From a virus, in IMG/VR virus record IMGVR_UViG_3300020174_000075, positions 1-24,215 of that record: 24,215 nt of DNA; one strand, 5' to 3'. The position numbers and the translations under genes were made by a program. The notes beneath the pieces are model-generated. The model ran no database searches. It saw only the letters and a program-made list of their open reading frames with translations, and was not told the origin of the DNA. Shown here piece after piece: positions 310 to 24,031 of the stretch. Position 1 is the stretch's first letter, and each line of letters opens with the position of its first letter.

Positions 310-1019
310 TGGCTTTACCAAGATTAAATGATTCCCCAAATTATGATTTAATTATACCATCAATGAAAAAAAGTGTGAGCTTTAGACCATTCTTAGTCAA
401 AGAAGAAAAGATTTTATTAATGGCTTTAGAATCTGATGATCAGAAACAGATTCTGAATACAGTAATTAATACTATTAAAGCTTGTGTAACTGAAGATATC
501 GATACTACAAGATTAACTACATTTGATATCGAATATATGTTTCTAAAAATACGAGCTAAAAGCGTAGGTGAAACATCGACTATTGTTATGAAATGTAATG
601 AATGTGAATCTAGTAATGATATTACATTAAATATTGATGATGTAGAAATAGAAGTACCAGACATCTCTAATACTATCGAATTGGATAACCAGATTTCTCT
701 TGAAATGAAATGGCCTACCTTCGATAGTATAGTTAGAGGCGATATTCTTTCTTCAGAATCAAGTGTAGATCAAATCTTTGGATTAATTAGATCAAGTATT
801 GATGTTATAAAAACAAATGAAGAAAGATTCTCTGCTAAAGATCAGACTGCTCAAGAATTAGATTCCTTTATAGAATCTATGAACAATCAGCAATTTACTA
901 AGGTAAGAGAATACGTAGAAAAAATGCCTAAGCTAACACATGATGTAGCTTTCTCTTGTAAAAAATGTAATCATCAAAACAATATTGTAGTAGAAGGAAT
1001 GCAAAGTTTTTTCTCATAG
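309..1019 (+). CDS. 26: gp26/gp51-type baseplate hub / tail assembly chaperone (zero-frame product)
   Basis: A 236-aa protein resembling the T4 base plate family that contains gp26 and gp51. The hallmark N-terminal stretch around residues 19-41 (SVSFRPFLVKEEKILLMALE) is present. Two CxxC pairs (C96/C99 and C217/C220) probably form a zinc ribbon. The start is the ATG at 309, fused to the previous stop as TAATG; an in-frame codon at 288 lies inside the upstream gene and has no advantage. It precedes a tape-measure-like gene, the position of lambda G/GT-type tail assembly chaperones. The last codons contain a slippery heptamer (1007-1013), and a -1 frame extends to 1201, so a longer 297-aa product is likely. 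The family assignment is strong; the exact T4 equivalent (26 or 51) is less sure. Confidence 0.85.
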   Translation: MALPRLNDSPNYDLIIPSMKKSVSFRPFLVKEEKILLMALESDDQKQILNTVINTIKACVTEDIDTTRLTTFDIEYMFLKIRAKSVGETSTIVMKCNECESSNDITLNIDDVEIEVPDISNTIELDNQISLEMKWPTFDSIVRGDILSSESSVDQIFGLIRSSIDVIKTNEERFSAKDQTAQELDSFIESMNNQQFTKVREYVEKMPKLTHDVAFSCKKCNHQNNIVVEGMQSFFS

Positions 1020-1106
1020 GTCTATCTCATGAGACACTTGTAAATTATTATAGGACGAATTTTCAGTTAATGCACCATTATCACTATTCGTTGACTGAGA
1101 TAGACC
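1007..1106 (+). promoter_or_regulatory. Programmed -1 ribosomal frameshift signal (slippery heptamer plus stem)
   Basis: The heptamer T TTT TTC lies at 1007-1013, in phase with the gp26-like frame (AGT TTT TTC TCA TAG). Five nucleotides downstream begins GGTCTATCTCA (1019-1029), which is perfectly complementary to TGAGATAGACC (1096-1106): an 11-bp stem closing a 66-nt loop. Heptamer, short spacer and downstream structure are the standard parts of a bacterial -1 frameshift site. Slippage keeps Phe-tRNA paired in both the P and A sites. The alternative frame is open from 1013 to a stop at 1199-1201. Confidence 0.8.
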
Positions 1107-1201
1107 ATATGATACCATGGGAAAGAGAAGTATATCTTGATATGCTAATCAACCATTTGAAAGAAGAACAAGCAAGGCAGGAACAACAGGGACGGGTATA
1201 A
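1013..1201 (+). CDS. -1 frameshift extension of the tail chaperone (GT-like C-terminal part)
   Basis: In the -1 frame, 62 codons follow the slippery site without a stop and end at TAA 1199-1201, overlapping the ATG of the next gene (TAATG). The resulting fusion would be 235 + 62 = 297 residues. The extension contains IPWEREVYLDMLINHLKEEQ, a helical, charged segment that looks like real protein, and it has no credible start of its own: its first ATG (1070) lacks a ribosome-binding site and would give only a fragment. In lambda-type tails the frameshifted GT product links the chaperone to the tape measure. By analogy this segment may bind the major tail tube protein or the product of the next gene. 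Confidence 0.78.
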   Translation, partial: LIGLSHETLVNYYRTNFQLMHHYHYSLTEIDHMIPWEREVYLDMLINHLKEEQARQEQQGRV

Positions 1202-2935: not shown

Positions 2936-3841
2936 TTAGTCGTCATTTGCCAATCGTGCAAAATATGACATAGTATCTTCATCACCAGATGTATCAATCT
3001 GCTCTGCCGTTACTGGCTCTGCCATACGTGGCTGAGGTGCTGGTACAGGTTCATTAATCATGTTTTCCTGCTTAATAGTATAAGCACCTGCAGTTGATTC
3101 TTCACCAAGAACACGCATTAACTTTGCTTTTAGTTCATCATACGTTTTGTAGTTCTTTGGATCTGTAAACTCACTGAGATTATGTAGTTGGTTATAAACT
3201 GATTCCAACTGGGATTCATTTCCTTCATATAGACCAGATGGGCTAGCAAACTCAGACTTATCATAATTACGATAACCTTCGACTTGACGGATCTTTAATT
3301 TAAAGTCTGCGCCTTCCCAAAAATCAAACGGGTTAACAGGATTTTCATCTGCAAATTCTGGCTGCATAGAATCCATGATTTTATCAAAGATCTTTTTACC
3401 AAACTTATAGATGAATACCTTGCCTTCATTCTGTGGTGCAGAAGGATCTTGAAGAACAAGAACATTCGTCACATAGTGAAGACGACGCTTTTGGTCACGA
3501 GCTTTCTGCTTATCAGATTCTACACCCGAGTTCCAAAGGCGCGAGTTAAGTTCCCCGACTGGATCAGTTTGACCAATAGAAGTAAGGCTGTTTTCGATAT
3601 ACCATTGACCAGTTGGTCCTTTGAATCCGTGATCCCAGTATCTGACCCAAGGTAGTTCTTGATCTGCTGCTGCTGGGAGGAATCGTAGTACTGCATATCC
3701 ATTACCTGCCTTATCTACGGTTGGCTTCCAAATCCGATCATCTGTATATGATTTCTTTTCAGTACCACCACCGGTAGATTCCGCTGCTTGTACTAGTTTC
3801 TGGATTTGGTCACGATTACGTTTTAGATTTTCGAATGTCAT
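2936..3841 (-). CDS. 32: gp32-like single-stranded DNA-binding protein
   Basis: A 301-aa protein, the same length as T4 gp32. It coats ssDNA in phage replication, recombination and repair, and contacts the polymerase and helicase-loading machinery. Visible parts: a basic N-terminus (LKRNRDQ) for cooperative binding, a central OB-fold core with typical motifs (AVLRFLP, VRYWDHGFKGPTGQWYIENS, YVTNVLVLQDP, FIYKFGKKIFDKI, NPFDFWEGADFKLKI) and an acidic C-terminal tail ending SYFARLANDD, the usual protein-interaction tail. Unlike T4 gp32 it has no Cys, so the T4 zinc site is missing. It sits alone behind its own TTTACA-17-TATAAT promoter and ahead of a strong terminator. gp33 is the next gene upstream, a neighbour also in T4. 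Confidence 0.95.
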   Translation of the reverse strand: MTFENLKRNRDQIQKLVQAAESTGGGTEKKSYTDDRIWKPTVDKAGNGYAVLRFLPAAADQELPWVRYWDHGFKGPTGQWYIENSLTSIGQTDPVGELNSRLWNSGVESDKQKARDQKRRLHYVTNVLVLQDPSAPQNEGKVFIYKFGKKIFDKIMDSMQPEFADENPVNPFDFWEGADFKLKIRQVEGYRNYDKSEFASPSGLYEGNESQLESVYNQLHNLSEFTDPKNYKTYDELKAKLMRVLGEESTAGAYTIKQENMINEPVPAPQPRMAEPVTAEQIDTSGDEDTMSYFARLANDD

Positions 3842-6762: not shown

Positions 6763-7098
6763 TTAGAATTTAACTGCAACACCTACAGTTGTATCCGTTT
6801 GTTTAAAATCTGCATCCAAATCGTTTTCAATATATACATCGATATTAGAAGTTACCGAATAGCTAAGATCGACATCAGCAGATGAAATATTAAATTTCAT
6901 ATTATCTGTAGTAGTATCTACCATATTTACTGTTGTGCTAAGGGTAAAATCACCTGATGTGATTGAAGGGCCAAAGAAGAGCTTATTAATTTCTGTATCC
7001 AGATTACGCTCAACCCCAACTGTTGTTTCAATTGAAGATTCAGCATATGCACTTGATGACATACCAAGCGCGAAGAGTGCAACCATTAGTTTTTTCAT
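6763..7098 (-). CDS. Secreted small outer-membrane-like protein with signal peptide
   Basis: A 111-aa protein with a clear Sec signal peptide: MKKLMVALFALGMSSSAYA, cleavage expected after A19. The mature part of about 92 residues is made of alternating polar/hydrophobic stretches typical of antiparallel beta strands and ends in VGVAVKF. A terminal Phe is the BAM-recognition signature of Gram-negative outer membrane barrels. At this size it could form only about 6-8 short strands, or pair with a host barrel. A TATAAATA late-type box lies 64 nt upstream of the ATG. A host-surface role such as receptor masking or exclusion is inference. Confidence 0.8.
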   Translation of the reverse strand: MKKLMVALFALGMSSSAYAESSIETTVGVERNLDTEINKLFFGPSITSGDFTLSTTVNMVDTTTDNMKFNISSADVDLSYSVTSNIDVYIENDLDADFKQTDTTVGVAVKF

Positions 7099-7185: not shown

Positions 7186-7259
7186 TGGAGCGGGTACCCG
7201 GAATCGAACCGAGGTCTTTGGCTTGGAAGGCGATTGTAATACCATTATACTATACCCGC
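7186..7259 (-). tRNA. tRNA-Gly (anticodon UCC), with a mismatched anticodon stem
   Basis: A 74-nt cloverleaf with encoded CCA. The acceptor stem GCGGGTA/TACCCGC is perfect, the D arm contains ATGGT, the T arm is CTCGG-TTCGATT-CCGGG, and the discriminator base is U, as usual for tRNA-Gly. The anticodon loop CTTCCAA gives UCC, reading GGA. The anticodon stem is ATCGC/GCCAA: only three of five pairs form, with A-A at 27-43 and C-C at 29-41. Either the gene is decaying, or the stem is repaired by base changes elsewhere, or it tolerates the mismatches. Confidence 0.88.
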
Positions 7260-7454
7260 AGGGTGTGGGGCTAACCGTTGGCCCCACGCGGATGTATTAA
7301 GGCATCACCCTTAAATTTAGCAGAGCCAACTTATAAATGCTGGATGCGATTGCGTTCCTTTCTTATGAAGGCGAACGGACCATTCCCACCTGCGTCTTAA
7401 TTTTAGAGTCGTTGCAGGCTTAACCACGTTTATACTCGTTCGACTAACTATATA
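7260..7454 (-). other. Structured spacer between tRNA-Leu and tRNA-Gly; possible small RNA
   Basis: About 195 nt between two tRNAs without a convincing gene. It contains a strong hairpin 5 nt before tRNA-Gly (GTGGGGC at 7265-7271 with GCCCCAC at 7281-7287, extendable through the loop) and an imperfect stem around 7350-7378 (CGTTCC/GAAGGCGAACG). There is also a CCTGC...GCAGG pairing at about 7388-7417. No U-run follows the strong hairpin on the minus strand, so it is not a normal terminator. A short GTG-started ORF here has no ribosome-binding site. It may be a processing insulator or a small RNA. Confidence 0.35.
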
Positions 7455-7539
7455 TGGTACCCACGGCCAGACTCGAACTGGCACGCCGTATGGCCACGGA
7501 TTTTAAGTCCGTTATGTCTACCTATTCCATCACGCGGGC
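7455..7539 (-). tRNA. tRNA-Leu (anticodon UAA)
   Basis: An 85-nt class II tRNA with a long variable arm and encoded CCA. The anticodon stem ACGGA/TCCGT closes the loop CTTAAAA, giving anticodon UAA, which reads UUA. The T arm is GCCAG-TTCGAGT-CTGGC. The acceptor GCCCGCG/CGTGGGT includes two G-U pairs, and the discriminator base is A, as LeuRS requires. UUA is a frequent codon in these AT-rich genes, which fits the idea that phage tRNAs top up codons scarce in the host. Three nt separate it from tRNA-Arg. Confidence 0.95.
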
Positions 7540-7542
7540 ATT

Positions 7543-7619
7543 TGGCGATTCCGGAAGGATTCGAACCCTCGACCCACAGCTTAGAAGGCTGTTGCTCTAT
7601 CCAGCTGAGCTACGGAACC
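7543..7619 (-). tRNA. tRNA-Arg (anticodon UCU)
   Basis: A 77-nt tRNA with encoded CCA. The acceptor is GGTTCCG/CGGAATC, the D arm GCTC...GAGC, the anticodon stem ACAGC/GCTGT with loop CTTCTAA (anticodon UCU, reading AGA), and the T arm GAGGG-TTCGAAT-CCTTC with one weak pair. AGA is the dominant Arg codon in this window's genes. The first ten bases of the tRNA are also the last codons and stop of the membrane-protein gene just upstream (7610-7789). Confidence 0.93.
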
Positions 7620-9615: not shown

Positions 9616-10233
9616 TTAATTTCTTTTTCTAGGATATACTTCTGCACGTACATTGTCTGGAACCTTAATCTTAAATTCGTCATGAACATGGTGTAAAACA
9701 AATTCGGTGTTCTTAAATTCTTTAAACATTTCAGACCAAATAGAACGCCAGTTAGTCGCTAATCGATTAGTATTCATATTTCCACGGTCAGAGTTTAGGA
9801 TAAAGTCAGAAACACTACGAAGATTAAAATCGAATATCGAATCGAATCCGTACAGATGTACTCTATCAGCCTTTAGTTTATTTGCAGCATAATGTACTGC
9901 CATATGACCACAATTAAAGTTAGTATAGTTGCCGGCATACTTAGGAAGATCTAAATAAAATTCTTTAATTTGTCTAGCCGTAGATAAATGAAAATTTGGA
10001 TTTTTCTCCATCCAAACCTTTGGCCTATATCCAAGTACCCATTCACCTGGTACAACAACTGTTCCTTCAGTCATAGCCTTCATCATTTTAAAATCTACAA
10101 TGCAAGTTGCATAATGATTTTTAGGATAAGGGAACGGTGCAAGATTACATGTAAGATTTAATCCCTTTCTTTCTCTTCTAGTATAGAGATGAACCCAATC
10201 ACCATTTCCAATAACATGAACTGATCTAGCCAT
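9616..10233 (-). CDS. Glycan-cluster protein, sialyltransferase- or MptE-like Rossmann enzyme (tentative)
   Basis: A 205-aa protein with SVHVIGNGDWVHLY at the N-terminus (a nucleotide-binding-like strand-loop) and a central NCGHMAVHYAANKL followed by ADRVHLYGFDSIFDF. A small-residue helix followed by the strand-Gly-x-Asp pattern recurs in CMP-sugar-using GT42 sialyltransferases and in DUF115/MptE-like proteins of surface glycan loci. A C-terminal HHVHDEFKIKVP could hold catalytic or substrate-binding His. It is the last of nine overlapping genes and overlaps its upstream neighbour by 8 nt. A glycosyltransferase or nucleotide-sugar enzyme is the best guess; the identity is not secure. Confidence 0.6.
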   Translation of the reverse strand: MARSVHVIGNGDWVHLYTRRERKGLNLTCNLAPFPYPKNHYATCIVDFKMMKAMTEGTVVVPGEWVLGYRPKVWMEKNPNFHLSTARQIKEFYLDLPKYAGNYTNFNCGHMAVHYAANKLKADRVHLYGFDSIFDFNLRSVSDFILNSDRGNMNTNRLATNWRSIWSEMFKEFKNTEFVLHHVHDEFKIKVPDNVRAEVYPRKRN

Positions 10234-10876
10234 TCATTAAACTCCTAATATGATCTTTCCCTTTTTTACCGGTCCAGTGTATCACTTTTTTCTTTTTACT
10301 ATCTACACCATCTAATAAATCTAATCTTAACCAATTATATACTGATGGTAGGTCCTTTATGTATGTAAGCTTAGAGATTGGATCTAACATACTATGCAGT
10401 ACTTCTTGGTCACCTACAACAGGGCTTTTCTTTACCTGCTCAAGCCATGCACGAAGTATTTGTGGTTTATTACGAAATCCAACTATACCAGAATTATGCC
10501 ATAGTTCTTTTCTTCTTTTAGACCAAGGTCTATCTTCAGCCATTAAAAGCTTTTCATTTTCAATTAAACTAAATATATCAGAAATGTTATCTAGTACTTC
10601 GCAATCAGTATCGATCCAAACTGTTTCTACCGATGGGCATGTCATCATAGCCAACGGTTTCATAAACCATCCTTTAAGATTATTATTCTTAAAATTTAAG
10701 ATAGCATGGAACTGTTCAAATACGTAGTTCTGTGTTTTTTCACTACACCCAAAATTAGCAAAGATAAGAGGTGTATCATTATGTTTTTTATAATTTTCTA
10801 CAAACCACGGAAGCATCCATTCAGTCTTTTCATCGCATCCTGTTAGGAATACCTTATCATACTTCTTCGATGACAT
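10226..10876 (-). CDS. GT-A glycosyltransferase, GT8-like
   Basis: A 216-aa protein started at ATG 10876 (MSSKKYDKVFLTG), with a GGGGA purine stretch just upstream; an ATG 12 nt earlier is also possible. It has the family-8 layout: an N-terminal strand-helix nucleotide-binding part, the metal-binding DxD motif in VWIDTDCEVL (D89, D91), HNSGIVGFRN in the middle, and the C-terminal KVIHWTGKKGKDH, whose His typically completes the metal site. It should transfer a sugar from a nucleotide-sugar donor to an acceptor that the sequence does not reveal. It overlaps the GT25 gene upstream by 20 nt, so the products are made together. Confidence 0.82.
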   Translation of the reverse strand: MSSKKYDKVFLTGCDEKTEWMLPWFVENYKKHNDTPLIFANFGCSEKTQNYVFEQFHAILNFKNNNLKGWFMKPLAMMTCPSVETVWIDTDCEVLDNISDIFSLIENEKLLMAEDRPWSKRRKELWHNSGIVGFRNKPQILRAWLEQVKKSPVVGDQEVLHSMLDPISKLTYIKDLPSVYNWLRLDLLDGVDSKKKKVIHWTGKKGKDHIRSLMNG

Positions 10877-11507
10877 ATCCGTCCCCATAATTATGTTTTG
10901 CCAAACAGCCGGCTTCCTTTTGGATCGTAGTAAAACTATCTACTGCCATGCACACCCACGGATAATATTCTTCTAGAAATGGGAAGTTATCAACATTTAG
11001 AAATACATCTGTTGGTCCACCGTGCGTCTTAGCTTTCTTAATAAGCTTTGCTGCACCTTCAGGATTAACCATATAACCATGCGCGCCACCAAAATATTTC
11101 TTTTGTACTAATCCATCTACACCTAATTTTATAGGGGTATTAAACTTTCCATATGATGGTTTAGAGAATGTTAAACAGCCTTTAAATTTTTCATTAACTG
11201 GTACTTCACCTGTTACAATGGCATCATGTTCAAAGATAACAATTGTTTCTTTTTGCTTAACAGACATTTCCCATAAAGAATGGTGGGATAAAAATGCCGC
11301 CATACAATTGTCAGGTCTAGAATATTTTTCATGGAAGAAAGATGGTTGAATACCTTTTGTATGTAAAATTAGATGAGGATTATCTTTAGGAGTTGTAGCA
11401 GCGTGATGCTCTACATGTAGACCATATCTTTCGGCAGACTTCATACAACGCATTGCTGCCTGTACCGATTTAGGGTTATCCATTAATGTTATAACAAATG
11501 CTTTCAT
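10857..11507 (-). CDS. Family 25 glycosyltransferase (LPS-type), copy A
   Basis: A 216-aa protein beginning MKAFVITLMDNP, the typical GT25 opening in which a first strand is followed by the donor-binding loop. AFLSHHSLWE (residues 71-80), the acidic EHD motif in IVIFEHDAIV (93-95), GAHGYMVNPEGAAKLI and PTDVF follow in the order expected of the family. GT25 enzymes often add galactose or related sugars to lipopolysaccharide. It overlaps the methyltransferase gene upstream as ATGA and shares its N-terminus and motif order with 12090-12785, so the two are paralogues. Confidence 0.87.
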   Translation of the reverse strand: MKAFVITLMDNPKSVQAAMRCMKSAERYGLHVEHHAATTPKDNPHLILHTKGIQPSFFHEKYSRPDNCMAAFLSHHSLWEMSVKQKETIVIFEHDAIVTGEVPVNEKFKGCLTFSKPSYGKFNTPIKLGVDGLVQKKYFGGAHGYMVNPEGAAKLIKKAKTHGGPTDVFLNVDNFPFLEEYYPWVCMAVDSFTTIQKEAGCLAKHNYGDGYVIEEV

Positions 11508-12085
11508 TTTTTCTCACAGACTAGAACATATCCCTTTTCTCTACCACGGAATTCTTCTACTATATTCATATCGACTTTATCTATCATATCAATTAACTCT
11601 TGTTTTTCTATTTTAAGAGGATCTGTTTTATTTGATACATGGTTCTTTTTTTGTACTGTATGTTCTAAAAATAATCTTCCAGAATCATTTAATTGATCTC
11701 TCCATACCTCTAGAGTTTCAAATGGTGTAATACTATGATCAAATGAGTTGCTATAAACAATATCAAATGAGTTAATCCATTCCTCTTTTACCATATTAAA
11801 ATCATGTTCAATAGTCATAGGAAATTCTTCTGCATTAGTACTTATTTCTGAACCAATAATGAATGCGTCTGATAAATGTTTTTGAAAATAAAGCTGTTCT
11901 TTTGCATTACGAGTACCATGACATAATACTCTCTTTGCATCTGGCATTCTTTTTACTATTTGTGTTATAGTTTCAGGTTTGACATATGCAATATTTTTTT
12001 CTTTTATCTTATCAATTTTCTTAAGATTACCTTCGATCTGAGATTTAACATAGTCCTCGTAATCTTTGTATTTAAAAATTTCCAT
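11504..12085 (-). CDS. SAM-dependent methyltransferase-like protein
   Basis: A 193-aa protein with a class I methyltransferase outline. A helical N-terminus is followed by a motif I-like strand-turn (AKRVLCHGTRNAKEQ), an acidic residue after strand 2 (IGSEIST), strand 4 as DIVYSNSFDHSI and strand 5 as SGRLFLEHT. Motif I lacks the usual GxGxG, but HGTR...E variants occur in phage and surface-glycan methyltransferases. It probably methylates a sugar or another small group made by neighbouring enzymes. A GAGGT ribosome-binding site precedes the start, and it is coupled to the GT25 gene downstream. The enzyme class is likely; the substrate is unknown. Confidence 0.72.
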   Translation of the reverse strand: MEIFKYKDYEDYVKSQIEGNLKKIDKIKEKNIAYVKPETITQIVKRMPDAKRVLCHGTRNAKEQLYFQKHLSDAFIIGSEISTNAEEFPMTIEHDFNMVKEEWINSFDIVYSNSFDHSITPFETLEVWRDQLNDSGRLFLEHTVQKKNHVSNKTDPLKIEKQELIDMIDKVDMNIVEEFRGREKGYVLVCEKK

Positions 12086-12089
12086 ATTA

Positions 12090-12785
12090 TTACCTCGAAG
12101 TAGTAGAAGGTGTACCTTGAACTTCTGTATAGAATGTCTTTGTTACACCTAATGCTGGGATTAGTTGTTTACACATAATAGCATCATTAGGCCATAAACC
12201 ATGATCTTCTACAAGCCTTAGCATCTGTCTAGCCCCTTTTGGTTTAATTATATATGCTGAGTTTCCAGCTAACCCTTGGGGAACTTCGAATGAATCAATT
12301 GTTGGTACAAGCTGTAGTTCTTTAGTATTTTCATCAATTATCTGTTTAAATAGGTTTGCCTTCCTAGTTGCAAATAATGGATTATTAATGCCTATAATAA
12401 AAAACTTATCAGTATCGATAATATTAATATCTAATTTCTTTATAAACTTTGCATCATGTTCTAAAATAAGATATGGTTCAGCATCATTATAACAATTTTT
12501 CCATAAAGTATAATGACTCAAAGAACAAGCGATTCTAGCTTGTTTATTTACGGTAGGATAAGCAGACTTTTTTAAACCAGTTTTAAAATCAAATACTGAT
12601 CCTTCCCAGGGATAGTTCCATTCTAGGCGGTAATCTCTCATCATTTTGTTTACTTGACGTGGTATTACTGCATCAAACTTCTGAATCTCAAAGGAATTAC
12701 CTACGACTTTGCTACTTTCTATACACACGTCTGCAGCATGTTGAGAGACTTCGTGGTCTGGTATTGTAATTACAAATGCCTTCAA
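12090..12785 (-). CDS. Family 25 glycosyltransferase (LPS-type), copy B
   Basis: A 231-aa protein with MKAFVITIPDHE at the N-terminus, ACSLSHYTLWKNC (about residues 86-98), the EHD motif in YLILEHDAKF (109-111), LAGNSAYIIKPKGARQML and WPNDAIMCKQL, the GT25 motif order. Compared with copy A it has an extra acidic/aromatic insertion around residues 45-78, which may change the acceptor. The start is a TTG at 12785 overlapping the previous stop (TTGA), with AGGA upstream; no ATG upstream would fit better. Placed between two methyltransferases, it presumably acts on the same glycan. Confidence 0.85.
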   Translation of the reverse strand: MKAFVITIPDHEVSQHAADVCIESSKVVGNSFEIQKFDAVIPRQVNKMMRDYRLEWNYPWEGSVFDFKTGLKKSAYPTVNKQARIACSLSHYTLWKNCYNDAEPYLILEHDAKFIKKLDINIIDTDKFFIIGINNPLFATRKANLFKQIIDENTKELQLVPTIDSFEVPQGLAGNSAYIIKPKGARQMLRLVEDHGLWPNDAIMCKQLIPALGVTKTFYTEVQGTPSTTSR

Positions 12786-13309
12786 GGCTTACGTCCTACA
12801 AATACATGATCTGCCCAACGGCGAGATCTTTCGTCTGGTTGTGATCGATCTACATAATCAGTAATAGTTTCTAATCCTGCCTCTTCGGCAATAGCCTGAA
12901 ATGCATCATCCATAAATCTCCAGCAATCAATAGAGTCGTGGTACTTACCTGCTGATGGTGCAATAAGAATAATATAACCACCAGATTTAAGTACACGTGT
13001 CATTTCGATAACACTGCGAAATGGATTCTTTACATGCTCAAGTACCTGTCCGCATACTACAAGATCAATAGATCCTTCTTCAAATGGTAATTCATAATCA
13101 CCAGGCATAACATGTGTAACATTTGGTCCGTTCTGGATATCTGCAATATAATAGTCTTTTACTACATCCTTAAACATTTGCTTGTACGATCTATCTTGAC
13201 CAGGCTTAATATCTCTACCACCAACGTCAAGAATAGTAATACCTTTTTCTAATCTAGATCCTAGTAGATCTCTAGATCTTTGCATATTAATACGGGATGA
13301 TGGGTGCAT
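12782..13309 (-). CDS. Class I SAM methyltransferase (Methyltransf_11 type)
   Basis: A 175-aa protein with the standard motifs: motif I ITILDVGGRD (residues 25-33), an acidic residue after strand 2 (YYIADIQNG), motif around strand 4 IDLVVCGQVLEHVKNP and post-motif LKSGGYIILIAPSAG. The EHV sequence is characteristic of methyltransferases acting on small molecules and sugars. It also has WRFMDDAFQAIAEEAG, the usual late helix. Length is normal for a stand-alone catalytic domain. An AAGGA ribosome-binding site lies in the end of the upstream gene, and the genes are 2 nt apart. The substrate is probably a sugar residue of the product glycan. Confidence 0.9.
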   Translation of the reverse strand: MHPSSRINMQRSRDLLGSRLEKGITILDVGGRDIKPGQDRSYKQMFKDVVKDYYIADIQNGPNVTHVMPGDYELPFEEGSIDLVVCGQVLEHVKNPFRSVIEMTRVLKSGGYIILIAPSAGKYHDSIDCWRFMDDAFQAIAEEAGLETITDYVDRSQPDERSRRWADHVFVGRKP

Positions 13310-13311
13310 AA

Positions 13312-13905
13312 TTAAATCCTTATCTCAAATTGTACAGCGCCGTGTTGCTTAATTTTAAATTTATGTTTACTTACAAATTCTTTTACTGCCTTTGTTACAC
13401 CAGGCTTACCAAATCTTTGTCCCCATTTATAATCATCGCCAAGAATCATACCACCAGGTTTTACGATTTTTAATGAATTTTCTAGATCAGCAGTTACACC
13501 TTCATATGAATGAGATCCATCTAAATAGATCCAATCTAATTGATCACCTTTAAATTCTTTAAAGAAATCGTCTGATGTTTCTCTGCAAACAGTTACGTTC
13601 GAATAGGGACTAAATCTACGATTTACATCTTCGTATACTTTTTCGTAGTATTTCTGAAAGCCTTCTTCAGTATTCGATCCTGTTACTTTTTCATATCTAC
13701 TTAGATATTCATCCCATTCAAATTCAGTAGATCCTTTATATGGTTCTACACTCCACGGATCTACCAGATATAAATGCTTAAGATTTTTCATAAAAAAGTT
13801 ATAGGATGTGTTACCCCACCATACACCAACTTCAGCACCAATTGTATCTTCTTTAATAAGGTGCATAATATTATGCGAATCCTTATTAATTCTACTTCCC
13901 ATCAT
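13312..13905 (-). CDS. Class I SAM methyltransferase (Methyltransf_24 type)
   Basis: A 197-aa protein when started at ATG 13905, which overlaps the previous stop (ATGA) and has GGAG 9 nt upstream. An in-frame TTG at 13920 overlaps that ribosome-binding site and is unlikely. Motif I is GAEVGVWWGNTS (residues 23-34), strand 4 is LDWIYLDGSHSYEGVTADLE and strand 5 follows with VKPGGMILGDDYKWG. The YLDGSHxYExVxxDLE signature is typical of methyltransferases found in polysaccharide and small-molecule loci, including TylF-like sugar O-methyltransferases. An O-methyl group on a sugar is the natural guess. Confidence 0.9.
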   Translation of the reverse strand: MMGSRINKDSHNIMHLIKEDTIGAEVGVWWGNTSYNFFMKNLKHLYLVDPWSVEPYKGSTEFEWDEYLSRYEKVTGSNTEEGFQKYYEKVYEDVNRRFSPYSNVTVCRETSDDFFKEFKGDQLDWIYLDGSHSYEGVTADLENSLKIVKPGGMILGDDYKWGQRFGKPGVTKAVKEFVSKHKFKIKQHGAVQFEIRI

Positions 13906-14588
13906 TTCGTGTGTCTCCAATAATTTTTCTTAGCACCTGTATCAAAATCGAATCCCCATGTTTCGATATCCTTTTGATACCAATCAGCAACAATCTGAAT
14001 TGTTTCTGGTGTATATATTGTTTTATAATCTTCGTTTAATCCGGTAACATTTCTAGCTCTGCTCATTTCAGGAATTTTAAAATATGCACAGAGATCACTG
14101 TTTAGGTTTTCAAATCTCATCATATCACATTTAATATTTCCTTCTTTATCGGTAACATAATCGTATGCATTATACCAACCACGGATAGCTCTGTGCCACA
14201 TATATTTCATATCTCCCCATTCGAATCTTTCTTCTAGGAAATGTTCAAATGAATTGATTTTATGTTTACCAGGTTTTTCTTTTTTCTCTACCTCAATTAC
14301 TTTTTTTGCAAAGAAATAGCGTGACACTACTCTATCCCAAGGATTTCTAATAACAGCAAATGCTTCGTGCCCACGCGCGAAAGCAGGATTTAGATCACGC
14401 CATCTTGCATGTTCATATCCATGATGATCCCCAATACTATTCATATGAGCTAATACAGACTGGGTATACTGTTTGCTTTTATGAATCTGCGGAGTAGCAG
14501 GAATAATCTTATTAGCTAGCTGAGGCGACCTACGTATGGTCATTCCAGCATTTTTTGGGATGTGTATAAAAATTCTTTTAAGAAACAT
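13902..14588 (-). CDS. Sulfotransferase (PAPS-dependent)
   Basis: A 228-aa protein with the two co-substrate motifs of carbohydrate sulfotransferases: the 5'-phosphosulfate loop IFIHIPKNAGMT (residues 6-17) and the 3'-phosphate site AVIRNPWDRVVSRYFF (78-93). The C-terminus (TPETIQIVADWYQKDIETWG) matches the helix that usually ends Sulfotransfer_2 domains. The enzyme would move sulfate from PAPS to a hydroxyl of a sugar or another acceptor. It overlaps the GT8-like gene upstream by 11 nt and the methyltransferase downstream by 4 nt, so it works in the same pathway. The PAPS must come from the host, since no PAPS synthesis gene is seen here. Confidence 0.9.
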   Translation of the reverse strand: MFLKRIFIHIPKNAGMTIRRSPQLANKIIPATPQIHKSKQYTQSVLAHMNSIGDHHGYEHARWRDLNPAFARGHEAFAVIRNPWDRVVSRYFFAKKVIEVEKKEKPGKHKINSFEHFLEERFEWGDMKYMWHRAIRGWYNAYDYVTDKEGNIKCDMMRFENLNSDLCAYFKIPEMSRARNVTGLNEDYKTIYTPETIQIVADWYQKDIETWGFDFDTGAKKNYWRHTK

Positions 14589-15363
14589 ATTTCATTAACT
14601 CTTTTACGTTCTCGCCTCTATTTGGTAATTTATCTTTTAAGAAAAAATGTACAAAGTGTGCTTCTTTTACTTTGTTATCTTTAATTCCTTTAAAGAGGCC
14701 GTTCCATTTCCAATCTAGATGTTTAACATTCATCTTCTCTTGTTTTACCCAGGTATTTAGGAGAGTTTGATCTGTTGACCATTTCCATGGTCCCATCCCA
14801 TCAACAAAGGCTTTAAACTCTGGTCTGTTTATAAATTGGTGAGGGGTTTGTCCTTTTAGATATTTCGATATACGTTTATTCATAACCATAATACCCATAT
14901 TAAAAAACTCGCCACCAGTTTGCTTATCCCATTTCCAATCTAGTTTAATGGAACTATATTGCATACGAGAATAGTTAAGTATCTTTTGTCTGTACTGATC
15001 AGTAATAGGCATTTCGCGCTCGACCACGCCCGCGAAGTCAATATCCGTATTTAGTTCATCAAAAACATTAGGAGAGCCAGGTCTAATCCAAACATCAGCA
15101 TCAATAATAGCAATCTGATCATACTTTGGCCAATATGTAAAAGCATTCTCTTTTTCAAAGATAGGTAAAAATCCGCCATGCTTTTCGTACGATTCTCTAC
15201 TACGATTTGTAGAAAATACGTCTGGTTTAATTCTTAATATAGGGGTTTTTTGTACCTCATGATCAATACCGTGTTGTTTACAGTATTGGGATACAGACTC
15301 TACACAATGATCATAAAGATGTGAACGCTTGCCAACATAAACCTGATAAATCAATCTTTTCAT
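14578..15363 (-). CDS. GT-A glycosyltransferase, GT8-like, first gene of the glycan cluster
   Basis: A 261-aa protein with a metal-binding DAD motif (residues 88-90) in YDQIAIIDADVWIRPGSP. EFFNMGIMVMNK follows about 75 residues later, and the C-terminal KEAHFVHFFLKDKLP supplies a His, the usual order for retaining GT8-type enzymes. An insertion of about 50 residues between the DAD and the NMG motif is rich in Tyr, Arg and Trp and may shape the acceptor site. Only a weak GTGAG ribosome-binding site precedes the start. No early promoter lies immediately upstream, so the cluster is probably read through from the EF-hand membrane protein gene 37 nt away. Confidence 0.85.
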   Translation of the reverse strand: MKRLIYQVYVGKRSHLYDHCVESVSQYCKQHGIDHEVQKTPILRIKPDVFSTNRSRESYEKHGGFLPIFEKENAFTYWPKYDQIAIIDADVWIRPGSPNVFDELNTDIDFAGVVEREMPITDQYRQKILNYSRMQYSSIKLDWKWDKQTGGEFFNMGIMVMNKRISKYLKGQTPHQFINRPEFKAFVDGMGPWKWSTDQTLLNTWVKQEKMNVKHLDWKWNGLFKGIKDNKVKEAHFVHFFLKDKLPNRGENVKELMKYVS

Positions 15364-21024: not shown

Positions 21025-21429
21025 CTACGTTTTTCTTACATGGTTCGAATGTATTTTACAGCCGATAAACTCATTAAAGTAATCGTCGGTTAAAAGCACA
21101 TCGTTTTGGAATTGTAACTTAGCTTCGTAATAAGACATTTCGCCTTTACTTACACAGAGTCTTAAGATTTCTCTTTTGTAATTATCTGGCCCTTTTTGTT
21201 CAAGTAGTAATTGAAATTTCTTATTAGATCCATAATATTTTCGCCAGTCAGATTCAACTCTGGTTTTGATCCGTCTAGTTCTTTTACTATTTTTTGGTAA
21301 TATTTTAGGCCGCCAGAAGTTCTTCTTACCGATATATTTTTTATTTGTATCCAGTTCTGTGATAAGATACACAAATCCCTGGTACTCTTCTGGTGTGTCG
21401 TCGAAAGGTTTATCATTATAATACCACAT
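21025..21429 (-). CDS. GIY-YIG-like nuclease domain protein
   Basis: A 134-aa protein with GFVYLITELDTNKKYIGKKN at about residues 18-37, a GIY-YIG-like core (first strand GFVYLI, second KKYIGKK) with a downstream DWRKYYGSNKKFQ and KREILRLC helix region, and a Glu in MSYYEAKLQ as candidate catalytic residue. This layout is used by free-standing homing endonucleases and by structure-specific nucleases in T4-like phages. It could be a phage nuclease rather than a mobile gene, since it sits inside the nrdJ operon and no inserted target is visible. The start is 4 nt after the preceding tiny gene. Confidence 0.78.
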   Translation of the reverse strand: MWYYNDKPFDDTPEEYQGFVYLITELDTNKKYIGKKNFWRPKILPKNSKRTRRIKTRVESDWRKYYGSNKKFQLLLEQKGPDNYKREILRLCVSKGEMSYYEAKLQFQNDVLLTDDYFNEFIGCKIHSNHVRKT

Positions 21430-21686: not shown

Positions 21687-21831
21687 TGGCAATCTTCTCC
21701 AATATCTCTTTTTTTCTAGTATTAGATGCGGTAAACCATTCCCGAATCTCTTCAGAGGATCTACCGCATCCTATACAGATACTATCTATCAAAGTACAAA
21801 TTTTAATACATGGACTAGAAATCGATTTCAC
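21676..21831 (-). CDS. DUF1289-like small cysteine protein
   Basis: A 51-aa protein starting at GTG 21831 within the end of nrdJ (17-nt overlap), MKSISSPCIKICTLIDSICI, then GCGRSSEEIREW. It matches DUF1289: SPCIxxC, a variable loop, then CxGCGR followed by an acidic helix with Trp. Four Cys (C8, C12, C19, C22) probably bind a metal. In bacteria these tiny proteins have no firmly established role. Its placement directly after a cobalamin-dependent reductase makes redox or metal chemistry thinkable, but that is inference. Confidence 0.8.
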   Translation of the reverse strand: MKSISSPCIKICTLIDSICIGCGRSSEEIREWFTASNTRKKEILEKIASGK

Positions 21832-24031
21832 AGGCACCGCCAGCACAAGCTGCTGCTCCTAATGTATCAACATCAGTATATTTCTTTTCAGTGAGATCTT
21901 CCATCCAATTAATGGTTTTAAGATTAGTTTGGATCTTATTCCATTTATGAAGTAGATAAGCATCCTTAAGACAATACTCTGCCTTTTTAATATCACCTTT
22001 TAAGTAATTATCTGCAAAGTTATTAAAACGTCGTACCCAATCTTGTCTTGCTGCATTTTCAGAAGATTCTAAGGTAATATCTAATCCATAGCCTTGTGCT
22101 GTTGAACAAGCATCCCATAGATTAGAGAATACTTTTAGCGCATCTACAACAAGACCTGATGCAAAGATTGAAGCAGCATCATATTTCTTTACCATTTCCT
22201 TTGCAGTAATAACAGCAGTATTTGGTGCCTGATTAAAATCTTTATCTCCCATCATAGAAAGGAAAGAAATACCAGCAAATGAATGTCTATTTTCAAATAC
22301 ATATTTTTCTACTTCATCCCAATCGTCGACAAGGATAGTATTTGAAACATTATGACGTACGCCTTTATCTGCACAAAGATCTTCATTTGTTCCAGCATCT
22401 ACCCAATGCTTTTGGGCTTTCTTAACTAATTCCAAATGCTTAACACCAATTAGATCATCTTTATAAATTGATCCTTCGTTTGGTAAAATAGGAAACGAAA
22501 CTACGACGTCAGTACCTGATGCAGACCATACTGATTCTTCAACCATATAAGGATTAGATTTAATAATGGCTTGTGTAATCTCAGATTCTTTATTTAGCTG
22601 AACATTTCTTATATACATAGGGGAATGTTCAGCATGAATACCGGAAGCAGTTTGAAGTAATACGGAAGCATTGCCACTGGGCTTAACACAAGTAGTCCTA
22701 GCAGCAGGATTAATGCCGATAAGTGCAGAAACTTTTTTATTTGTTTCTCTAACAATCTTAGCTCCCTTTTCTAGAATTTTTTCGTTAAACAGGATATCCG
22801 GATTGTTCATCCAACCTGTAACTGATACACCTAATAGCGCTTCTCTATCAAAGATTTTCTTTGATGTATCTGATAAGAACCTAAAGTCAGTGTACCCAGC
22901 TTGTAGGGTACCGAGGATAGACGCTGCACGGCATGCCTTATAAAAGTCTTCCTCGGTATTGCACATGCCTCCGTTAATCTCTGTCAAGTTACATCCTTGC
23001 CAGCCAGATTTTCTACCAATCTGTGGGAACATACCAATCTCTACACAGGGATTAGTTGTATGCTCTGTTGATTCAACGAAAACAAATCCTGGTTCACCAA
23101 ACTGTTTAACAGATTCCATAATCTTGCCAAACTGTTCTGGTGTAGTTTTATCTCTAACAATAACAGCAGAATTGTTTGATCTGCCTCTTTGTGGATTATC
23201 CATAAACCAATTGCCAGTCTTTGCTGTCATCATTTCATCATCATCTGGTGAAAAAAGACAGATAGTTGCTGAACGACGAACCCCACCTGATAATACTGCA
23301 TCTGCTGCATGCATAGCAATATCATATACATTGATAGGTTTAATCGCAATAGGTTCTTTGGAGTCTAGTACAATACCTTGAAGTAAATGTTCGATTTTGT
23401 CGAGTGAACGACGTAGACCTTCTGGTCCTGGTGCTTTAAAGCCACCAGAAATTTTAGCTCCCTTTGGTCTAATATTTGTAAGATCAAAGAATACTCTACG
23501 TCCTTCGTAATCGGGATGTTTACCCCCACCAACAAAATAAGAAGACATTAGTACATCTAGTGCTGATGCCCAACCTTCAATAGAGTCTTCTACAATATAA
23601 CCTTTAGCCTGTTTAGTACGGGCTTGTAATTTTGGTAATTTTTTAATATGATGTTTCTGTACAGAAAAGCCTGCACCTGCACCGCAAAGAAGAATATAAA
23701 ACAGTTCACCAAAAAAATCTGGTCTATCTGCATATGATGAGGTACAATTATACATGCGCATTTGGTGTTTCATTAACTGATCACCACCAAATTGCAAAGC
23801 GCGCTGAGCACCGAGAACTCTTTGTTCTTTATAAGCTTGTCTTGCTTCTTCGAAATATTCTTTTAATTCATTATTCTTTGTAATATAGTTTTTTTCGTGC
23901 ATTTCAATAACACGATCTACTGCTTCATCCCAAGTTTCATATCTAGCTTCATCTTCAATATACCGGGAGTAGCCTTCGTAAAATTTTGTTTCGGACAAAA
24001 ACCTTCTTGTGTCAACAGCTGCTGTTGCCAT
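21815..24031 (-). CDS. nrdJ: Adenosylcobalamin-dependent ribonucleoside-triphosphate reductase (class II)
   Basis: A 738-aa protein, close to the 739 aa of Lactobacillus leichmannii RTPR, the monomeric class II reductase. It makes dNTPs from NTPs with a thiyl radical generated from coenzyme B12. Visible: MRMYNCTSS (C96, one partner of the redox pair), SGGVRRSATI, the radical-site block TTNPCVEIGMFP (N327, C329, E331), WQGCNLTEINGG (C347, likely second partner), NPAARTTCVKPSGNAS and a flexible tail with C729/C734 that shuttles electrons. No second subunit is needed. Start with a GAGGTGA ribosome-binding site and its own promoter. The glutaredoxin in this window may support it. Class II needs host B12 or a close analogue. 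Confidence 0.95.
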   Translation of the reverse strand: MATAAVDTRRFLSETKFYEGYSRYIEDEARYETWDEAVDRVIEMHEKNYITKNNELKEYFEEARQAYKEQRVLGAQRALQFGGDQLMKHQMRMYNCTSSYADRPDFFGELFYILLCGAGAGFSVQKHHIKKLPKLQARTKQAKGYIVEDSIEGWASALDVLMSSYFVGGGKHPDYEGRRVFFDLTNIRPKGAKISGGFKAPGPEGLRRSLDKIEHLLQGIVLDSKEPIAIKPINVYDIAMHAADAVLSGGVRRSATICLFSPDDDEMMTAKTGNWFMDNPQRGRSNNSAVIVRDKTTPEQFGKIMESVKQFGEPGFVFVESTEHTTNPCVEIGMFPQIGRKSGWQGCNLTEINGGMCNTEEDFYKACRAASILGTLQAGYTDFRFLSDTSKKIFDREALLGVSVTGWMNNPDILFNEKILEKGAKIVRETNKKVSALIGINPAARTTCVKPSGNASVLLQTASGIHAEHSPMYIRNVQLNKESEITQAIIKSNPYMVEESVWSASGTDVVVSFPILPNEGSIYKDDLIGVKHLELVKKAQKHWVDAGTNEDLCADKGVRHNVSNTILVDDWDEVEKYVFENRHSFAGISFLSMMGDKDFNQAPNTAVITAKEMVKKYDAASIFASGLVVDALKVFSNLWDACSTAQGYGLDITLESSENAARQDWVRRFNNFADNYLKGDIKKAEYCLKDAYLLHKWNKIQTNLKTINWMEDLTEKKYTDVDTLGAAACAGGACEIDF

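Follow-up and report, generated by a model that had tools for sequence, protein, structure and literature searches.

Genes 26 and 51 of a marine T4-like phage very probably constitute a single tail assembly chaperone locus that is expressed by a -1 frameshift, following the logic known from gpG/gpGT. The locus was analyzed in a 24,215-base virus record of this phage (IMGVR_UViG_3300020174_000075; this whole stretch of DNA is referred to as the window) and in homologous loci. A sequence-only reading of the window had placed a frameshift at the end of a gp26-like gene and had raised the idea that the contractile T4-like lineage uses, or has regained, the frameshift logic of other phage tails. 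That this lineage uses it is supported by the presence of a slippery heptamer and of a -1 frame in 130 of 130 distinct loci, and it is the conservation of these two elements that is the decisive evidence.

Gene order and putative recoding site

The genes of the locus are encoded on the plus strand in the order tail tube, 81-aa ORF, gp26, gp51 and tape measure. The window begins with the 3' end of the tail tube gene (1-54, stop TAG 52-54), which is present as whole gene on contig L001 (phrog_45, tail tube, E 1e-30); this contig is 99.9% identical to the window and carries upstream the head closure, DNA end protector and tail tube genes. The tail tube gene is followed by the 81-aa ORF of unknown function (64-309; phrog_23239, unknown function, E 3e-9), the TAA of which (307-309) overlaps the start ATG (309-311) of the gp26-like gene (309-1019). 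The 236-aa product of this gene had been recognized as gp26-like from its sequence, and the profile searches agree, as it matches PF12322 (T4_baseplate, E 9e-62, 209 bits versus a cut-off of 24.5) and phrog_150 (baseplate hub, E 8e-62). Its AlphaFold2 prediction has a pLDDT of 88 and in a fold search matches viral gp26 models and the T4-like "hub assembly catalyst" of phage ZZ1 (E 2.7e-6). Neither the sequence search of the PDB with the gp26 alignment nor the PDB fold search gave a significant match; the fold match to 2ob9_A, the tail assembly chaperone gp14 of HK97, is a weak hint (E 2.1, probability 0.44, 55 columns). Downstream, the tape-measure-like gene (1201-2814) has its best match in phrog_305 (tape measure, E 5e-8), further tape-measure matches being weak, and its position is that of the annotated tape measure genes of phiM12 and HTVC008M. 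The putative chaperone locus therewith lies between the tail tube gene, with the 81-aa ORF interposed, and the tape-measure-like gene, as expected for G/GT frameshift genes.

The last codons of gp26 read ATG CAA AGT TTT TTC TCA TAG and contain, at 1007-1013 and in the X_XXY_YYZ phase, the heptamer T_TTT_TTC that the sequence-only reading had pointed out; the short form ends at the TAG at 1017-1019. After a slip by -1 the frame continues with CTC ATA GGT CTA and is open for 62 codons (1013-1198) up to the TAA at 1199-1201, the final A of which is the first base of the ATG of the next gene (TAATG), again as described before. In the window, no ATG, GTG or TTG occurs in the -1 frame from its upstream stop up to the conserved domain, so that the independent start weighed in the sequence-only reading is absent. 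The extension (1013-1201) had been expected to hit C-termini of gp26-type proteins; a known family was indeed matched, but it is gp51, namely phrog_634 (baseplate hub assembly catalyst, E 1.6e-26, positions 55-115 of 121), and tblastn with the gp51 extension matched 671 phage records at E up to 10 and 609 at E up to 1. Unlike in T4, gp51 of the window is not a free-standing gene with a gp26-like N-terminal domain of its own, and the N-terminal part of the long form can here only be obtained from gp26, via the frameshift.

The site is flanked by two further elements. A Shine-Dalgarno-like (SD-like) sequence, AGAAGGA, is located at 992-998, 8 nt 5' of the heptamer; it was absent from the earlier description of the signal. 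On the 3' side a spacer of 5 nt (1014-1018) separates the heptamer from a perfect 11-bp stem with a 66-nt loop, formed by the arms GGTCTATCTCA (1019-1029) and TGAGATAGACC (1096-1106), which is present just as previously described. RNA folding of 1005-1125 recovers this stem (MFE -29.2 kcal/mol, z -2.56 versus dinucleotide shuffles), and 0.34% of the synonymous-codon shuffles made from the extension yield a perfect 11-bp stem at that position. As 11-bp perfect inverted repeats within 100 nt have six start positions in the whole 24-kb window, the stem taken alone is modest evidence and insufficient for the case.

Conservation of the heptamer and of the -1 frame

Two scans of IMG/VR resulted in 160 loci, half of which were found by gp26 alone and were thus not selected for carrying the extension. 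Both the gp26 and the gp51 part are readable in the 130 distinct loci, and a set of 93 loci is non-redundant at 85% identity. Throughout the 130 loci gp51 is located in the -1 frame relative to gp26, and TTTTTT[T/C/A/G] is found in the X_XXY_YYZ phase at or near the gp26 stop. Codon usage was tested, since the FF pair is itself conserved at the protein level. In each of the 93 non-redundant loci the codon preceding FF has T as its third base and TTT is the codon used for the first Phe, compared to a TTT share of 74% among the Phe codons in the remainder of gp26. Evaluated against each gene's own codon usage, the phase of the heptamer has a joint log10 P of about -36, a figure that is inflated by kinship, with exceptions in 0 of 93 loci. 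Codon usage does not account for the phase of the T-run; elsewhere in gp26 TTTTTT occurs in the same phase at only 21 of 21,588 positions. A -1-frame stop codon stands immediately 5' of the heptamer in 25 loci, so that the frame opens exactly there. Both frames are conserved as protein.

These observations bear on the alternatives to a frameshift. One of them is that gp51 is a separate small protein, translated from a start of its own or through termination-reinitiation where gp26 stops, with the T-run being incidental. Databases do annotate gp51 as own short gene, the SD-like element could in principle drive initiation, and in KVP40, ValKK3, phiM12, Atu_ph04, RL2RES, Vibrio 1.244 and Limestonevirus a TAATG or TGATG in frame with gp51 stands at the stop of gp26. 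However, 68 of the 93 loci contain no ATG, GTG or TTG between the stop upstream and a point 24 nt beyond the heptamer, making normal own initiation of gp51 impossible there, and the same holds for the window up to the conserved domain; moreover, the 25 loci with an in-frame stop directly 5' of the heptamer, the invariant codon phase of the T-run and the occurrence of the same domain in fusion with a gp26-like domain in T4 gp51 all speak against it. An own start of gp51 was therefore rejected for the window and for most loci, and the explanation as a whole is judged very improbable. A long form generated by transcriptional rather than ribosomal slippage on the T-run would suit the runs of 8-9 T seen in 36 of the 93 loci. 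But only six T are present in 45 of them, the window included, and six T are short for RNA polymerase slippage; the fixed X_XXY_YYZ phase, the SD-like element and a stem 5-7 nt downstream are all unnecessary for a polymerase, and this explanation is regarded as extremely improbable. The chance that a single long gene was broken up by decay, or by a mistake in sequencing or assembly, is practically negligible. Homopolymer runs are error-prone, and phage IME-SM1, with five T against the six of its relative Ps15, has a false read-through annotation; but the same layout recurs across 130 distinct contigs and in numerous cultured phages that were sequenced independently, with both frames protein-conserved.

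SD-like sequence and downstream RNA structure

In most loci an SD-like sequence ends 7-9 nt upstream of the heptamer. Its pairing to the anti-SD amounts to -6.3 kcal/mol compared to -4.8 kcal/mol in synonymous shuffles (p 6e-7, 93 loci, kinship ignored). The 11-bp stem was considered as a family-wide element and rejected, as 53% of cells were paired at its columns, no better than after a slide by 4 nt. Thus, of the elements that the sequence-only reading wanted compared across homologous loci, the heptamer and the -1 frame are conserved throughout the 130 loci and the 11-bp stem is limited to the window's subgroup: 11 of the 93 non-redundant loci retain it with 10-11 pairs, including a compensatory exchange of G-C to C-G in the window-type stem of two loci (L107 and L033), and loci outside this subgroup have different pairing partners and structures. 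In place of the rejected family-wide stem a general structure test by synonymous shuffles was used. The downstream RNA is more stable than the shuffles (mean z -1.45, n=91, p 9e-13, kinship ignored), compared to a z of -0.41 for control stretches of gp26 in the same fold test, and the longest helix starts 3-8 nt 3' of the heptamer in 24 loci versus about 7.4 expected (kinship ignored).

Proposed mechanism

Under the -1 frameshift reading, the majority of ribosomes would terminate at 1017-1019 and release gp26 of 236 aa as the short, TAC-N/gpG-like form. A minority would slip by -1 on T_TTT_TTC (UUUUUUC in the mRNA), aided by the upstream SD-like element and the downstream stem, and would produce the gp26-gp51 fusion of about 297 residues as the long, TAC-NC/gpGT-like form. 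The signal, the reading frame, the lack of a start codon, the conservation and the homologies are shown directly, and from them we infer the slippage itself, its efficiency and the role of the products as chaperones. By analogy to lambda gpG/gpGT, the short and long forms may both coat the tape measure protein, whose gene follows, tail tube subunits may be recruited by the gp51 part of the long form, and the frameshift may set the ratio of short to long form. T4 and its close kin would obtain equivalent products from two paralogous genes, 26 for the short and 51 for the long form.

Comparison with T4 and probable direction of evolution

T4 encodes gp26 and gp51 as separate genes, as the sequence-only reading had it, and these are placed on opposite strands, which means that no frameshift can join them. 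The T4 gp26 gene ends with GAG TTC TTT GAG and lacks the heptamer, in contrast to T_TTT_TTC in gp26 of the window. T4 gp26 corresponds to the short form, and T4 gp51 matches the frameshift fusion along its length. An HMM of the virtual fusion matched T4 gp51 at positions 24-280 of 297 (i-E 1e-10 at Z 100,000), and an HMM of gp26 only matched five of five T4-type gp51 proteins (full-sequence E 0.001-0.005), whereas six other T4 proteins gave no match. Profile comparison by hhalign gave 97.3% and 98.8%, and in PHROGs both T4 proteins belong to phrog_150. Judged by these sequence comparisons, T4-type gp51 is composed of a gp26-like domain and a gp51 domain, and this two-domain make-up implies that T4 would encode the short and the long form as two oppositely oriented genes. 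Both T4 proteins have been described as hub assembly chaperones, with gp51 absent from the finished particle (PMC3004832).

In a tree of the gp26 domain, T4-type gp26 and the N-domains of T4-type gp51 group on one side (93/90) and the single-gene lineages on the other, with midpoint root and long branches. Parsimony over the lineages suggests that the frameshift layout is probably ancestral and the T4 duplication derived. The idea that the T4-like lineage regained the frameshift is accordingly not favored, since many lineages share the frameshift layout and the arrangement in T4 looks derived. T4, for which the literature makes an exception to the rule of a conserved tail frameshift (PMC5009743), would thereby become a derived case with duplicated genes.

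Cultured phages and lineage variants

The heptamer and the -1 frame are found in cultured phages of at least seven lineages. These comprise Kyanoviridae (P-SSM2, S-PM2, C48C1, HTVC008M), Schizotequatrovirus (KVP40, ValKK3), Emmerichvirinae (AS-szw, Aeromonas 65) and likewise Ahp1, Pootjesviridae (Atu_ph04, RL2RES), Emdodecavirus (phiM12), Menderavirus Ps15, the jumbo Asteriusvirus SP27 and Desulfovibrio phage 7757. In KVP40, ValKK3 and a few others an ATG directly follows the gp26 stop, and reinitiation could contribute there; a search for further loci like that of Vibrio 1.244 found none. In AS-szw, Aeromonas 65 and Ahp1, large Aeromonas phages that share their family with Aeh1, gp51 is unannotated or mis-annotated in the -1 frame. 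Five loci (L163, L164, L174, L175, L188) have public gp51 versions that start late or doubtfully (34-57 aa) or a spurious small ORF; the gp51 -1 frame begins within gp26 in all five. In Stenotrophomonas phage IME-SM1 (L169, 2468-3310) the annotated gp26 continues in the wrong frame. A +1 shift was considered for this phage and rejected, as it has one T fewer than Ps15, most likely due to a sequencing error or a true single-base deletion.

In Ackermannviridae gp51 is still located in the -1 frame and the canonical heptamer is absent. The enterobacterial members (L166, L185, L186, L187, L190-L204) carry [GA][GA]TTTTCAT[TC] at the gp26 end before the stop, a site also written as [GA][GA]TTTTCATT. 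Kuttervirus, Taipeivirus and Miltonvirus have no start codon ahead of the conserved gp51 domain, and in several enterobacterial Ackermannviridae a -1 stop stands just 5' of the site, which is likely an atypical frameshift site; GGTTTTC of Serratia 3M is similar to the T7 gene 10 site. Other Ackermannviridae have TAATG.

A tentative reading of this diversity, which we hold to be possible rather than probable, is that a three-part signal of the dnaX type (SD-like sequence, TTTTTTY and stem) is ancestral to the gp26/gp51 family and is being replaced lineage by lineage. With the same reserve, the routes of replacement might together be stop-start coupling in some vibrio and rhizobium phages, the atypical [GA][GA]TTTTC in enterobacterial Ackermannviridae and gene duplication toward T4. 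If so, the gp26/gp51 family would represent a natural series of gain, retention and loss of recoding.

Relation to known systems

In lambda, gpG is the short form and gpGT a rarer long form made by a -1 frameshift (Xu, Hendrix and Duda, 2004; PMC5009743). The window resembles this system in the short/long pair encoded between the tail tube and tape measure genes and differs from it by the protein family as judged from sequence, the contractile tail and the heptamer TTTTTTY. Tail chaperone frameshifts of this sort are known from the majority of tailed phages, and a 2016 review described the tail frameshift as conserved "except T4" (PMC5009743). In Vandenendeviridae and Andersonviridae the chaperone is made by a -1 frameshift at a T-rich site with the motif GTTTTT (PMC12846349); the mis-annotation of the downstream frame as own gene or as intergenic is a likeness to the loci described here, while the motif and the phage families are different. 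The tail assembly chaperones of T4-like phages are treated by Vladimirov, Gautam and Davidson (2022, Virology 566:9-15); papers citing this work (PMC10885494, PMC12846349) indicate that in some T4-like phages a short chaperone gene is accompanied by a distinct long one of fused type, and they describe poly-T slippery signals as known from TAC-N genes of this phage group. The kind of frameshift proposed here is thus already known, including its discussion for T4-like phages, and is not a first; the SD-like element, the structure statistics, the lack of start codons, the spread over lineages and the Ackermannviridae variant may be new or may already be published.

A comparison from 2010 reported that cyanophage gp51 reaches no more than about 20% of T4 gp51 in length and that gp51 is missing in Aeh1, and names no frameshift in its main text (PMC3037559). 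The frameshift would explain this puzzle, the "missing" 200 residues being gp26, joined to gp51 by the slip. It would equally concern many database records, in which gp51 is given as separate gene with a doubtful start or is absent.

Other features of the window

Convergent with the tape measure gene, a gp32-type single-strand DNA binding protein is encoded at 2936-3841 (phrog_224, E 7e-111). A 111-aa protein with a signal-peptide-like start and a beta-barrel-like look (6763-7098) had no Pfam match, and three minus-strand tRNA genes, Gly(tcc), Leu(taa) and Arg(tct), are located at 7186-7619. A minus-strand gene cluster with a flavor of glycan modification (9616-15363) contains a methyltransferase (12782-13309) and a sulfotransferase-like protein (13902-14588, PF03567, E 1.6e-6). 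Toward the end of the window a SegE-type GIY-YIG homing endonuclease (21025-21429, PF19835, E 1e-33) is followed by a ribonucleotide reductase (21815-24031) with features of class II, B12-dependent enzymes.
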